Assembly (NCBI GenBank): GCA_030531085.1 | Contig: JAUNOM010000015.1 | Coordinates: 1-56,677, forward strand | Direction of reading: 5' to 3' | From: Prevotellaceae bacterium | GTDB taxonomy: Bacteria; Bacteroidota; Bacteroidia; Bacteroidales; Bacteroidaceae | Length of the DNA: 56,677 nucleotides | Shown: piece after piece, positions 14,595-51,855 of the stretch | How positions within the stretch are numbered: position 1 is the stretch's first letter | Layout: every line of letters begins with the position of its first letter | Notes under the pieces: generated by a model | Seen by the model: only the letters and a program-made list of their open reading frames with translations | Databases searched by the model: none | Told to the model about the DNA's origin: nothing | Made by a program: the position numbers and the translations under genes

Positions 14595-14783
14595 GCCCTT
14601 TTCCGCCCTTGAACAGCCTTTGCGGTCGTGTGGATGGCGCATGGAGAAAAATCTAACGTCCGCAGAAAAAAATCTAACGTCGTTTTGAGAGGCATCGCCC
14701 ATCGACAGCCAATTTGGGAGCATTCACAGAGTATTCTGGTGCGCCCACGGAGAAAAGCGGAACGCCCACGGACACACCTTATT
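14595..14783 (+). repeat. Degenerate 21-bp-period tandem array A
   Basis: About nine units start at 14595, 14616, 14637, 14658, 14679, 14700, 14721, 14742 and 14763. The clearest are 14637-14678, where AATCTAACGTC recurs exactly 21 bp apart (14650 and 14671), and 14742-14783, where CGCCCACGGA recurs exactly 21 bp apart. The core is (G/C)TCCGCAG, an A-tract, then ATCTAAC. The central units are degenerate but stay in register. The same core occurs in reverse orientation at 51188-51313. Confidence 0.75.
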
Positions 14784-24138: not shown

Positions 24139-24170
24139 AAAGCGATGCTCATAAAATAGAACATCGCTTT
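24139..24170 (-). terminator. Terminator of the tRNA-Ser-Glu-Glu transcript
   Basis: A 9-bp perfect stem pairs 24139-24147 with 24162-24170, directly after the last tRNA on the minus strand. Confidence 0.7.
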
Positions 24171-24173
24171 TTG

Positions 24174-24245
24174 TAGTGGATAGGGGATTCGAACCCCTAT
24201 GGCAAGATTGAGAATCTTGAATCCTAACCCTTAGATGAATCCACC
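24174..24245 (-). tRNA. tRNA-Glu(CUC), copy 2
   Basis: A 72-nt cloverleaf on the minus strand. The acceptor GGTGGAT pairs with ATCCACT with a terminal G-U. The anticodon stem CAAGA/TCTTG encloses TTCTCAA, giving CUC. The T-loop is TTCGAAT and the discriminator is A; no CCA is encoded. It is identical to the copy at 24271-24342. Confidence 0.92.
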
Positions 24246-24270
24246 GTCAGATTATGTATGTTGCCTTTTG

Positions 24271-24342
24271 TAGTGGATAGGGGATTCGAACCCCTATGGC
24301 AAGATTGAGAATCTTGAATCCTAACCCTTAGATGAATCCACC
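24271..24342 (-). tRNA. tRNA-Glu(CUC), copy 1
   Basis: Same sequence as the copy at 24174-24245. The two sit in 79-bp perfect direct repeats (24169-24247 and 24266-24344) offset by 97 bp, so this is a tandem duplication inside one tRNA transcript. Confidence 0.92.
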
Positions 24343-24371
24343 GTAGGCATTTGGCAACTAAAGAGAAAGTG

Positions 24372-36822: not shown

Positions 36823-36859
36823 TATCATTTCCTATATCTATCAAAGTCCACTGTAAAAG

Positions 36860-36938
36860 GATAGAGATTACACAGTAAACAGATAGAGATTACACTCCAA
36901 TTTGATAGAGATTACAATGTAATTTGATAGAGATTACA
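36860..36938 (+). repeat. Four-copy 22-bp-period direct repeat array C
   Basis: GATAGAGATTACA occurs unchanged at 36860, 36882, 36904 and 36926, exactly 22 bp apart each time. The 9-bp gaps differ (CAGTAAACA, CTCCAATTT, ATGTAATTT). Conserved core with variable fixed-length gaps suggests selection on the core and its spacing. Confidence 0.9.
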
Positions 36939-37338: not shown

Positions 37339-39483
37339 ATGGCAGTATTAGGAAAAATCAGAAGCAGGGGAGCCTTGCTCGTTGGCATAATAGGCCTTGG
37401 CCTCTTTGCTTTCATTGCCGAAGAAGCAGTACGTTCCTGTGACTCTACAAAAAACAATGAACGGCAGCAGATTGCAAAAATCCTCGGCGAGAAAATCAGT
37501 TTTCAGGAATTTCAGGCACTTGTTGACGAATACATTGACGTTATCAAGATGACGCAAAACAAAGACAACCTTAATGAGGAGGAACTCAATCAGGTGCGCG
37601 ACATGGTATGGAATACGTATGTGCAGAATGCACTTGTAGCCAAAGAAGCTAAGGAACTTGGACTTACTGTTACAGACGATGAGATGCGTGACATCCTCAA
37701 CCAAGGCACAAATCCTATGCTGATGCAGACCCCGTTCATGAACCAGCAGACTGGAAGATTTGATGCCAATGCCCTAAAGCAGTTCATTAATGAGTACAAG
37801 AAGGCACAAACCTCTAATCCTCAGGCTGCAGAGCAGTATCGCACTATATACAATTACTGGAAATTCATAGAGAAGACACTTCGCCAGCAGACACTGGCAC
37901 AGAAATACCAGAATCTTCTGGCTTCATGTTTCCTATCCAATCCGGTAGAGGCAAAGCAGGCATTCGAGGAGGAGAACAACGAGGCTGACATACAGCTCGC
38001 CGCATTCACATACGCATCAGTAGCAGATAAGGATATAAAGATAACAGACTCAGACCTTAAGGCGAAGTATGACGAAATAAAGCCACGCTTTAAGCAATAT
38101 GAGGAGACTCGTGACATTAAGTATGTAGCTGTACAGGTCACAGCATCAGCAGCTGACCGTACCAAGCTAAACGCACAGGTTAACGACTACGCAAAGCAAC
38201 TGGCAGAAGCAGCAGAGCCTGCAGAAGTGATACGTAAGGCAAATAGCACAGTAGCATATCTTGGACTTCCAGTATTAAAATCTGCATTCCCTATGGATAT
38301 AGCACAGCAAATAGACTCTATCTCCGTAGGTGCGACAACAGCAGTAAAGGAAAACAAGCAAGACAACACTCTTAATGTAATCAAGCTCATTTCCAAGCAG
38401 GAGTTACCGGATTCTGTTGAATTTCAGGCCATACAGGTTGGTGGCAATGACATAGAGGATGCAAAGAACCGTGCAGATTCCATTGTCAAGGCGCTGAACG
38501 CCGATGCCACACAATGGGATGCTTTAGCAAAGAAATATGGCCAGACAGGAGAAAAGCAGTGGATGACTACACAACAGTATCAATATTCCACAAGCATCAG
38601 CTCTGAAAACAGGACATTCCTTAACGCCCTTAACACTATGTCTACCGGTGAGATGCGTAACATCAGCACGGCTTCCGGCAATATCATTGTCAAAGTAACA
38701 GACCGCAGGAATTTCCAGACAAAGTATATTGCAGCTGTCATAAAGACAAAGATAGCATTCTCTGATGATACTCAGAACCAGGCATACAATAAGTTCTCAC
38801 AATACGTATCAGAGAACCAGTCACTCGAAGGACTTGAAAAAGCCGCCAAGAAATATGGCTATACTGTATTGGAACAGAACGATGTAAGAAGTGCACAGCA
38901 TGTAATTGCCAACATACCTGGCACTCATGAGGCTTTGAAATGGGCATACGAGGCAAAAGCAGGGGAGGTTTCTCCACTGTATGAATGTGGCAATAACGAC
39001 AGCTTCCTTGTACTTGTTGTAACAAAAATACATGAGAAGGGTTATCGCTCACTCGATGATCCAATGGTAAAGGAACTGGTAAAGGCTGAAGTCATGAATG
39101 ACAAGAAGGCCGAAGTCATATTAGCTAAACTGAATGGCGTAAAGGACATAAACGCTGCCAAGGCAAAGGGCGCGCAGATAGTACCTGTAAAGCAGATTAC
39201 TTTTGCAGCTCCTACATTCGTAAGTGTCGTAGGTTCATCAGAGCCAGCACTCAGCGGCGCAGTATCTGGTACAAAGGCTGGAATGTTCTCATCTCATGCT
39301 GTCAAGGGCAACGGTGGTGTTTACCTCTTTAAGGTGAACTCTAAGAAGAGCCGTGGTCAGAAATATGACCAGAAACAATATGAGCAGCGTATGACACAGC
39401 GTGCCATGCAGGCTGCTGGCAACTTCATGCAGGAGCTTTACATTAACGCTAATATCACAGATAACAGATATATGTTCTTCTAA
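37339..39483 (+). CDS. PpiD/SurA-like periplasmic peptidyl-prolyl isomerase chaperone
   Basis: A 714-aa protein anchored by one N-terminal helix (GALLVGIIGLGLFAFIAEEA) after a short basic stretch. A SurA_N-type helical domain follows (KILGEKISFQEFQALVDEYI). A parvulin-type region lies near residues 350-455 (DSVEFQAIQVGGNDIEDA, KKYGQTGEKQWMTTQ), and a second parvulin-like domain lies towards the C terminus. PpiD chaperones hold proteins emerging from SecYEG on the periplasmic side. Prolyl isomerase residues in these domains look diverged, so chaperone action may dominate. It is flanked by its own promoter and a terminator. Confidence 0.87.
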   Translation: MAVLGKIRSRGALLVGIIGLGLFAFIAEEAVRSCDSTKNNERQQIAKILGEKISFQEFQALVDEYIDVIKMTQNKDNLNEEELNQVRDMVWNTYVQNALVAKEAKELGLTVTDDEMRDILNQGTNPMLMQTPFMNQQTGRFDANALKQFINEYKKAQTSNPQAAEQYRTIYNYWKFIEKTLRQQTLAQKYQNLLASCFLSNPVEAKQAFEEENNEADIQLAAFTYASVADKDIKITDSDLKAKYDEIKPRFKQYEETRDIKYVAVQVTASAADRTKLNAQVNDYAKQLAEAAEPAEVIRKANSTVAYLGLPVLKSAFPMDIAQQIDSISVGATTAVKENKQDNTLNVIKLISKQELPDSVEFQAIQVGGNDIEDAKNRADSIVKALNADATQWDALAKKYGQTGEKQWMTTQQYQYSTSISSENRTFLNALNTMSTGEMRNISTASGNIIVKVTDRRNFQTKYIAAVIKTKIAFSDDTQNQAYNKFSQYVSENQSLEGLEKAAKKYGYTVLEQNDVRSAQHVIANIPGTHEALKWAYEAKAGEVSPLYECGNNDSFLVLVVTKIHEKGYRSLDDPMVKELVKAEVMNDKKAEVILAKLNGVKDINAAKAKGAQIVPVKQITFAAPTFVSVVGSSEPALSGAVSGTKAGMFSSHAVKGNGGVYLFKVNSKKSRGQKYDQKQYEQRMTQRAMQAAGNFMQELYINANITDNRYMFF

Positions 39484-50137: not shown

Positions 50138-51016
50138 ATGCAGTTAATTGACGGAAAGGCAACCGCGGCGGCCATCAAGGAAGAGATAGCGGCGGAAGTG
50201 AAGGAGATAATGGCGGCAGGTGGAAAGCAGCCCCACCTCGCGGCAGTGCTCGTGGGCCACGACGGAGGCTCCGAGACTTATGTGAAAAACAAAGTGCTGG
50301 CGTGCGAGGCGTGCGGCTTCAAGAGCACACTGATACGCTACGAGGCGGACATCACCGAGGAGGAGCTGCTCGGATGCGTCGACAAGCTGAACAATGACCC
50401 GGACATTGACGGGTTCATAGTGCAGCTGCCACTGCCAAAACACATCAACGAACAGAAAATCATCGAGGCCATAGACTACCGCAAGGACGTTGACGGCTTC
50501 CATCCCATAAACGTAGGACGGATGGCTATCGGTCTGCCCTGCTTCATATCCGCCACGCCGCTCGGCATCATCACATTGCTGAAGAGATACAACATCGAGA
50601 CATCCGGCAAGAAGTGCGTCGTGCTTGGACGCTCCAACATCGTGGGCAAGCCTATGGCACAGCTGATGATGCAGAAGGAGTATGGCGACGCCACCGTCAC
50701 CGTTTGTCATTCACACTCTGCCAATCTGAAGGAGGAATGCCGCGAGGCCGACATTATCATTGCGGCTATAGGCCGTCCAGGCTTCGTGACGGCGGACATG
50801 GTCAAGGACGGTGCGGTCATAGTTGACGTAGGCACGACACGCGTTCCCGACGCCACACGTAAAAGCGGCTTCCGCCTGTCAGGCGATGTAGACTTTGAGA
50901 ACGTGGCGCCCAAGTGCTCATTCATAACGCCCGTTCCCGGTGGCGTGGGCCCGATGACTATCTGCTCACTGATGAAGAACACACTGTCAGCAGGCAAGAA
51001 AGAGTTCTACAGATAA
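50138..51016 (+). CDS. folD: Methylene-THF dehydrogenase / methenyl-THF cyclohydrolase
   Basis: A 292-aa bifunctional enzyme interconverting methylene-, methenyl- and 10-formyl-THF in one-carbon metabolism. Signatures are [14 protein letters not shown] with the catalytic Lys, [26 protein letters not shown], the NADP site [14 protein letters not shown], and [15 protein letters not shown]. Length is normal. It ends the nadC-rfb-ffh-folD run with a strong terminator. Confidence 0.97.
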
Positions 51017-51051
51017 CATTCACGCAAGACGGGGAACTGTACAAATATCCC

Positions 51052-51090
51052 AAAACTACGTAGTATTTCATCCATACTGCGTAGTTTTTT
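51052..51090 (+). terminator. Terminator of folD
   Basis: AAAACTACGTAGTAT (51052-51066) pairs with the arm at 51074-51088 with one mismatch, ending in a run of seven T. Confidence 0.85.
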
Positions 51091-51187
51091 TGTTTTTCAT
51101 AGTCCCGATATCCGGCAAAAAGCCTGCATTTCCCTGCGAAAAATATATAATTTTACATAAACGATACAAAATCACTCCCACAGAACG

Positions 51188-51313
51188 ATAGATTTTCTCA
51201 TACGGATGGCGCAAAAAATTCTGAAGGCCGTCTAAAAATCTCTAAAGGCTGCGGATTTTTCGCTGCGGACCATAGATTTTTTCCTGTGGACCGTGGATTT
51301 TTTCAAAAAGGCC
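51188..51313 (-). repeat. Degenerate 21-bp-period tandem array B
   Basis: Six consecutive units start at 51188, 51209, 51230, 51251, 51272 and 51293, each exactly 21 bp. The last three share GATTTTTTC- or GATTTTTCG-type tracts followed by CTG(C/T)GGACC or AAGGCC. The core TAGATTTTTT then CTGYGGAC is the reverse complement of the core in array A at 14595-14783. Partial units extend beyond both ends. Confidence 0.78.
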
Positions 51314-51432
51314 GCCCAAAAATTTCCAGCTATATGGTAAGAAACTCCATACCATACAGCATACAATAAAAAGATTAAGAATAAGTAGTAAAAAGATTTA
51401 GGCGATACAAATAAACAAGTCAGAAAAGTTCA

Positions 51433-51855
51433 TCACTTCCTTTTAAAATTCATTATCTTGGGCAGCTTTATCCATTTTCCCTTACCCGCCATCTTTATTA
51501 CGCTGCCTTCCAATTGTTTCAGGGTGTATCCGCCATCGGCATCGGCCGTCAACTCGGCCACAAGGTCCTCGGAGCCATAATCATTCACGATGACGAGGCG
51601 TGCACTCCTTGCCTTCTCGTCCAGCGTAGCCTCCATAATTATCCATACGCGTGAGTCCGTCGCCTTTTTTATGTACCCATAGACTTTTCCCAACAGCTCC
51701 TGGCCGGGAATTGTTATGCTCTCCTCATATAGATTGACATCGAGAAAAACGTCATAGTCCTTATTATATACGCGAGCCTTGAACATACCGTCCTGCGCCA
51801 TGCCCACAATGCTTTGAATCATGCAGAATAATAATATGAAGAGTGTCTTTTTCAT
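51433..51855 (-). CDS. Small secreted protein, function unknown
   Basis: A 140-aa protein with signal peptide MKKTLFILLFCMIQSIVGMA. The mature part (VYNKDYDVFLDVNLYEESIT, then IPGQELLGKVYGY and IVNDYGSEDLVAEL) looks like a small beta-sandwich. It ends KWIKLPKIMNFKRK. I recall similar unnamed proteins from Bacteroides and Prevotella but no function. It stands alone between the array and the divergent glycogen genes. Confidence 0.65.
   Translation of the reverse strand: MKKTLFILLFCMIQSIVGMAQDGMFKARVYNKDYDVFLDVNLYEESITIPGQELLGKVYGYIKKATDSRVWIIMEATLDEKARSARLVIVNDYGSEDLVAELTADADGGYTLKQLEGSVIKMAGKGKWIKLPKIMNFKRK

Follow-up and report, generated by a model that had tools for sequence, protein, structure and literature searches.

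The window, the whole stretch of 56,677 nucleotides analysed here, carries two short arrays of a tandem unit. The longer one, array B, is placed between folD and the 3′ end of a convergent 140-aa ORF. The shorter one, array A, starts about 60 bp past a 421-aa Peptidase_C11 gene. The features around both arrays are as follows.

14600–14760, reverse strand: looser 21-bp-spaced neighbourhood of array A, in register as read by eye
14647–14682, reverse strand: array A, two clean units from the array B family, located by pattern matches
50138–51016, forward strand: folD (THF dehydrogenase/cyclohydrolase)
51052–51088, forward strand: folD terminator hairpin with T tail, upstream of array B (fold z −4.3)
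51188–51313, forward strand: array B, six units, each with its AT tract at one constant place in the register (lag-21 identity against shuffles)
51314 to about 51334, forward strand: degenerate, partial seventh unit with an A tract in phase (register reading)
51433–51855, reverse strand: 140-aa ORF without a Pfam match, convergent neighbour of array B

Two turns of B-DNA take up 21 bp. The segment 51188–51313 consists of exactly six contiguous units of this length, as an earlier note on this DNA had stated. The self-identity of array B at lag 21 is 0.51, and this lag is the sole outlier, since all other lags from 15 to 31 give at most 0.32. Dinucleotide shuffles gave an identity of 0.25 at lag 21, and none of 5000 reached 0.51. 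Tandem Repeats Finder reports only 2.3 copies because the units have diverged. The tract changes polarity along the array: units 1, 4, 5 and 6 carry a T tract, and in units 2 and 3 the same place is taken by an A tract. The A tract of units 2, 3 and 7 reads AAAAA, in register. A scan of 50950–51500 gave no promoter-like sites, and the only Rfam families in the window are tRNAs. The unique spacers of a CRISPR array are absent, the units of array B being contiguous. Elsewhere in the window, 24169–24344 is a perfect 97-bp tandem duplication with two tRNA-Glu (CTC) genes.

The earlier note had also proposed that arrays A and B share one unit and that both follow the 3′ end of a gene. Both proposals were borne out. 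With up to three mismatches, TAGATTTTTTNNTGYGGAC has four matches in the window against 0.34 expected, and none of 100 shuffles reached four. The pattern GGACCRTAGATTTTT at three mismatches is weak in the window alone (5 matches against 2.61 expected; 8 of 100 shuffles). By these pattern counts, the likeness between the two arrays is above chance.

The family extends over the window's genome (G000; 2.37 Mb, 61 contigs). With at most one mismatch, GGACNNTAGATTTTT has 38 matches genome-wide and none for the reversed control. The matches merge into 20 loci, 19 of which are arrays on read-out; the locus on contig C28 shows none. Ten of the 19 arrays lie at contig ends. The earlier note's claim of a dispersed family with one constant period, frequently close to the 3′ ends of genes, is supported. 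Its claim of a fixed orientation is not: 19 matches are forward and 19 reverse. Four contigs carry at least two array loci; three of these (C15, C24 and C50) have arrays on both strands, 29–75 kb apart (the contigs are unordered), and C34 has one strand. The GC half of the unit is well conserved within the genome, copy number is variable, and array edges are degenerate. Across 106 register positions, 6 carry an A tract, 40 a T tract and 60 neither, so that A-for-T swaps are few overall and common in array B. Read by eye in register, many arrays have a unit polarity in common, with GGATGAT or GGACGTT units with CTGC first, followed by AGGCCGT and AGGCCGC units with CTAA or CAAAA. This common order suggests, at the level of sequence, copying between loci rather than independent origin of the arrays.

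Three further observations were made around these arrays. A near-identical terminator-like hairpin, AAGAACCCACTGA..TCAGTGGGTTCTTG, adjoins two different arrays (L227 and L228). An AT-rich palindrome of about 40 bp around GTACGCGTAC is found near several arrays, on either side (L001 at 1652–1695, L012 at 1350–1392, L010 at 1420–1456), and over the genome as a whole it is not frequent. The palindrome AAGGTACGCGTACMTTAT, also near several arrays, was rejected as a genome-wide partner, as it has 7 matches and its reversed control has 7.

An all-against-all blastn comparison of 17 array loci of this genome gave 221 cross-locus rows, 198 within the arrays and 23 elsewhere. Nineteen of these 23 join the flanks of L005 (C24), L015 (C50) and L018 (C59); the other four are short matches. 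Each of these three loci, out of 17, holds an element of about 0.5 kb that has the array as its interior, a conserved leader and tail, and a hairpin of about 45 bp at either end (fold z −8.9 and −6.4). L015 has its array inverted relative to leader and tail. No hairpin ends were found at arrays A and B or at the other 14 loci; contig ends truncate some of these 14. A scan of 0.71 Mb of the genome revealed eight hairpin pairs with ends 370–545 bp apart. Three enclose a 21-bp array, four (L287, L293, L302 and L323) enclose units resembling GATAGAGATTACA, and L292 has neither repeat. With up to two mismatches, GATAGAGATTACA has 84 matches in the same 0.71 Mb against 15 for the reversed control. 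This repeat is also present in the window, where a tandem array with a GATAGAGATTACA core (36849–36938, period 22 bp, 4.1 copies) lies ahead of a gene at 37339.

36860–36938, forward strand: second two-turn repeat, four copies of the GATAGAGATTACA core exactly 22 bp apart; the same repeat lies inside sister elements

As units of this kind occupy the same element slot as the 21-bp array, two unrelated two-turn repeats have one vehicle in common. In other genomes, the hairpin scan was positive at 3 of 19 array loci in G054 and at none of 31 in six others.

The exact unit is restricted to the window's species among the genomes sampled, a sample from a larger genus that may miss the closest relative. 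Five of 199 other genomes from the genus have one chance-level match each. The DNA of array B gave three weak matches in 397 other genomes; those in G784 and G756 are not arrays on reading. A relaxed search on 21-bp spacing matched 27 of 100 genomes, the window's own included, and many of these are chance by their control columns; a spacing search at one mismatch matched 2 of 399, the own genome and G377. A search of viral contigs gave no match, and four plasmid records match at 90 % over 31 bp (E 0.2–0.5). Read by sequence, arrays with a 21- or 22-bp period are dispersed in other species too; they keep an A/T tract in register, but their letters differ. Units of their own were read in register in G097 and G129 and in the following genomes.

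G051: TTATATTTTTTCACGAGAGGC, read in register
G054: TGAGATTTTTGGCCATTTTTC, in palindromic pairs, read in register
G081: TCGTCCGACGGAATTTTTTTT, read in register
G377 (another genus): AGTTAGATTTTTTTTCCACGG, read in register

A loose pattern search of contigs gave mostly chance matches; among the matches listed, only L032, L105 and L091 resembled relatives. Their genomes have 10, 5 and 2 matches, respectively, at up to three mismatches and none for the controls. The named records with the same frame are a goat-rumen Bacteroidaceae MAG, a rumen Bacteroidales MAG and a MAG labelled Fibrobacter. In the latter, the array at L091 has a 21-bp unit close to that of the window's genome (GGACTTTAGATTTTTTCTACA); misbinning and wider spread are both possible. 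In G054 (L174–L192), 17 of 19 arrays of the 21-bp family have units in both orientations, forming REP-like head-to-head palindromes. Four loci of G029, on C20, C94, C101 and C279, carry another dispersed sequence with a T tract (like GTTTGCCTATTGATTTTTTCTATTTTGAAGATTTTT).

Array positions are not conserved across species. Ten locus pairs have a homologous flanking gene, one of them above 50 % identity. This pair, L189 (G054) and L210 (G377), comes from two genera and has unrelated units; in both, the array lies about 240–290 bp past that gene's 3′ end. The flanking proteins are 75 % identical, and one such pair is near chance.

To compare periods between species, tract spacing was left free from 17 to 25 bp, and rows with equal spacing and a unit identity of at least 0.6 were kept. 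In the 105 rows examined, six genomes have a period of 21 bp, five of 22 bp, and one each of 17, 20 and 24 bp. Thus 11 of 14 genomes have 21–22 bp, which under uniform periods has a p of about 1e-5, genomes being counted and species treated as independent. These 105 are among the rows listed; the 16 of G147 are absent from them, as are the majority for G081 and G001 and individual rows for G019, G049, G054 and G080. Thirteen more genomes, picked for many matches, added 21-bp arrays in G144, G092 and G052 and a 24-bp array in G138; this test used even-length rows only, in which equal spacing is possible, and left out repeats of G144, G053, G092 and G004. Two cases of period 21 were not counted as arrays: in G053 a simple repeat of 7 bp underlies it, and in G009 the sequence is of low complexity. 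G083 and G029 have period 21 with a unit identity under the cut. That periods of 20 and 24 also occur speaks against the reading preferred below.

The tracts are coherent at 10.5 bp in three genomes: 0.60 against 0.40 for shuffles in the window's genome (12 loci), 0.86 against 0.38 in G051 (8 loci) and 0.50 against 0.35 in G054 (13 loci). In each, the vector sum exceeds all 100 shuffles. The coherence of G081, G377, G034, G097 and G129 is not above the largest shuffle, and in G081 and G054 little or no phasing is seen outside the core units. Such coherence would be expected of any 21-bp repeat that bears a tract; it predicts curvature and does not demonstrate selection for it.

The arrays are not distributed evenly over intergenic gaps. 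For 67 loci in eight genomes, with genes taken as longest-ORF calls, 25 gaps are tandem, 18 convergent, 6 divergent and 15 one-sided, and 3 loci lie inside ORFs; this set omits L222 of G097 (no motif match) and misplaces L025 (wrong cluster). The 29 control gaps of the same loci are 14 tandem, 3 convergent and 12 divergent. The comparison of convergent with divergent gaps is 18/6 for arrays against 3/12 for controls (p 0.001). Arrays run either way relative to the adjacent gene. The bias in gap type would follow alike from selection or from mere tolerance.

A role in segregation or in the nucleoid had been among the suggestions of the earlier note. A related species offers a lead, and the window's own species lends it no support. 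The near-closed genome G010 (three contigs) has a 22-bp family with 47 pattern matches at up to three mismatches and none for controls. On its 1.98-Mb contig C3, 23 of 33 loci, merged by hand, lie at 649–1095 kb (L265–L281; Rayleigh p about 4e-5, with the contig treated as circular); seven further loci are on the smaller contigs C1 and C2. Motif density is 13.8–15.9 per 100 kb in the zone (649–1100 kb, set after viewing the distribution) against 2.5 outside. TTTTTT is rarer in the zone (1.65 against 2.11 per kb). The single exact parS-like palindrome of G010 is at 834 kb, about 0.8 kb from gidA/mnmG and with uvrC on the other side. Allowing one mismatch adds a site on C2, and one-mismatch controls occur too. 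GC skew is weak, with a cumulative low at 780–900 kb. An assignment of the cluster to the terminus was dropped given the finer skew and parS. The zone around parS and gidA is likely the origin; we only infer this placement because dnaA lies on another contig. The unit strands on the two sides of 880 kb are 12+/8− and 4+/9−.

Origin proximity was then assessed for all species by mapping array-flanking genes to G010. An uncontrolled first mapping placed 17 of 21 genes in the zone. With controls, three species had 9 of 14 blocks in it and their controls 4 of 14 (p 0.13; stricter, 8/13 against 2/9, p 0.10); taking every array together, the figures were 14 of 26 and 8 of 30 (p 0.055; stricter, 13/23 against 6/20, p 0.12). 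The array contigs of the window species show the opposite trend, with 3 of 30 blocks in the zone against 4 of 16 for controls (stricter, 2/26 against 4/11); 3 of 30 lies below the sampled share of 0.33 (p 0.004) and argues against origin proximity. Two other mappings of this species gave the same result (3/16 against 8/20 and 3/20 against 9/23). Origin proximity in all species was therefore rejected: the window species is opposite, and the lean of the others towards the origin is not significant. The clustering in the origin domain of G010 is kept as a lead.

Our preferred, though tentative, reading is that the arrays are a dispersed intergenic minisatellite with a period of two helical turns, which spreads as a module and acts, if at all, at the level of DNA. 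Hairpin-ended elements, together with copying between loci, may disperse the arrays. An A/T tract every two turns would align the tracts along a single face of the helix, and this would give a bent or stiff segment or a regular ladder of minor grooves. An abundant architectural protein could then coat the ladder at gene ends. The frame would be kept, while the remaining letters would drift and be homogenised within a species.

A selected role of this kind has a close competitor in a neutral or selfish mobile minisatellite, which we consider nearly as likely. Here, arrays would grow by slippage, hairpin-ended elements would be moved by a transposase in trans, and the products would be tolerated away from promoters; the period would be incidental, and nothing would bind. 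The elements at 3 of 17 array loci, together with the five hairpin pairs that lack a 21-bp array, are what such a minisatellite would leave, as are species-restricted units, variable copy number and degenerate edges. Neutral insertions also avoid divergent gaps, and the unconserved positions fit them equally. There is a precedent in BrickBuilt of Porphyromonas gingivalis, with 23-nt units, a leader and a tail in the part of the description available (PMC4596501). Neutrality accounts less readily for separate unit families that converge on 21–22 bp with an AT tract, for a register in array B that survives swaps of polarity, and for one element slot filled by two unrelated two-turn repeats. Most arrays of the window's genome, A and B among them, also lack element ends.

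Operators for a sequence-specific DNA-binding protein that co-evolves with the unit in each species would likewise give tandem sites at a fixed helical phase and a fast turnover of sequence, and the well-conserved GC half within a genome would suit them. We regard this as unlikely, as divergent gaps are rarer for arrays than for controls and the units are arranged as palindromes in G054 and directly in the others.

The earlier note had further considered a transcription boundary, which for array B is superfluous, folD having its own strong terminator hairpin ahead of the array. A terminator or 3′ boundary acting at the RNA level through T runs is very unlikely in general. It would explain the location near 3′ ends and the terminator-like right edges seen by eye in some arrays of the window's genome. 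However, the sole terminator site near array B is the upstream one of folD, and the one weak minus-strand site beside array A is about what chance gives (one site, with 0.8 expected). In array B, T tracts give way to A tracts, arrays lie either way to the gene, and the RNA folding of arrays A and B (z −1.1, −0.6, +1.0 and +1.0) is no better than that of shuffles. Action on DNA is favoured over termination because the tracts are phased, RNA structure is lacking, folD has its own terminator and orientation to genes is not fixed. A fragment of a repeat-coding ORF is hardly credible: 21 bp would make seven codons, a multiple of three, but no ORF of at least 100 aa covers array B, array loci rarely lie inside ORFs, and the unit is 22 bp in other species.

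A wider version of the preferred reading is a clade-wide architectural system of Bacteroidales. Selection would act on the helical frame and not on the letters, hairpin-ended elements would bring interchangeable two-turn repeats to gene ends, and the arrays of some species would mark the origin/parS domain as a ladder for chromosome organisation or segregation. We hold this to be improbable. With its family concentrated around parS, G010 is a genome in which a role in the origin domain could be checked. Were it the frame and not the sequence that is conserved, the usual searches by homology would miss the class, and the frame would offer a testable handle on chromosome organisation in Bacteroidales. 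Even if the arrays are neutral, they coincide with assembly breaks, and an interior swapped between two unrelated two-turn repeats shows how such repeats can travel.

In the literature on intergenic repeats, minisatellites and phased tracts of Prevotella, Porphyromonas and Bacteroidetes, in which subscription journals are poorly covered, BrickBuilt is the sole near relative found. According to the part of the paper available, it is an intergenic minisatellite/MITE of 23 nt at 19 loci in the 2.3-Mb P. gingivalis genome, with a limited host range and assembly gaps at its sites; 3 of 19 copies lack both leader and tail (PMC4596501). It is bounded by 12-nt repeats that resemble the ends of IS5-family elements, and the consensus given there has no T tract (PMC4596501). 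As far as this partial description goes, the present family resembles it as an intergenic tandem repeat of about two turns at 19 loci, species-restricted in the sampled genomes and associated with assembly breaks, with 3 of 17 arrays enclosed in an element that has a leader, a tail and inverted ends. It differs from what is described there in its 21-bp unit of different letters, which does not match the published 23-nt consensus, in its hairpin ends of about 45 bp, in the lack of such ends at most arrays and in an element that may hold a 22-bp repeat instead.

The arrays are dispersed extragenic repeats, as REP/BIME sequences are, and most arrays of G054 combine both unit orientations. Unlike REP/BIME, the array units of the window's genome are not hairpins (only the separate element ends are), and copy number is low. 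For a strand-directional motif of the KOPS kind, the relevant observation is the even split of matches between strands, on contigs that are not ordered into replichores. As in the A-phased (curved) DNA of bacterial intergenic regions, A tracts lie between genes in helical phase (PMC4060949). In the portion of that paper available, the pattern is counted genome-wide, whereas here it belongs to a discrete family with species-specific units (PMC4060949). The kind is thus known, a dispersed and partly MITE-borne minisatellite; what is new is that unrelated units share a two-turn frame and that the interior of the element can be exchanged.
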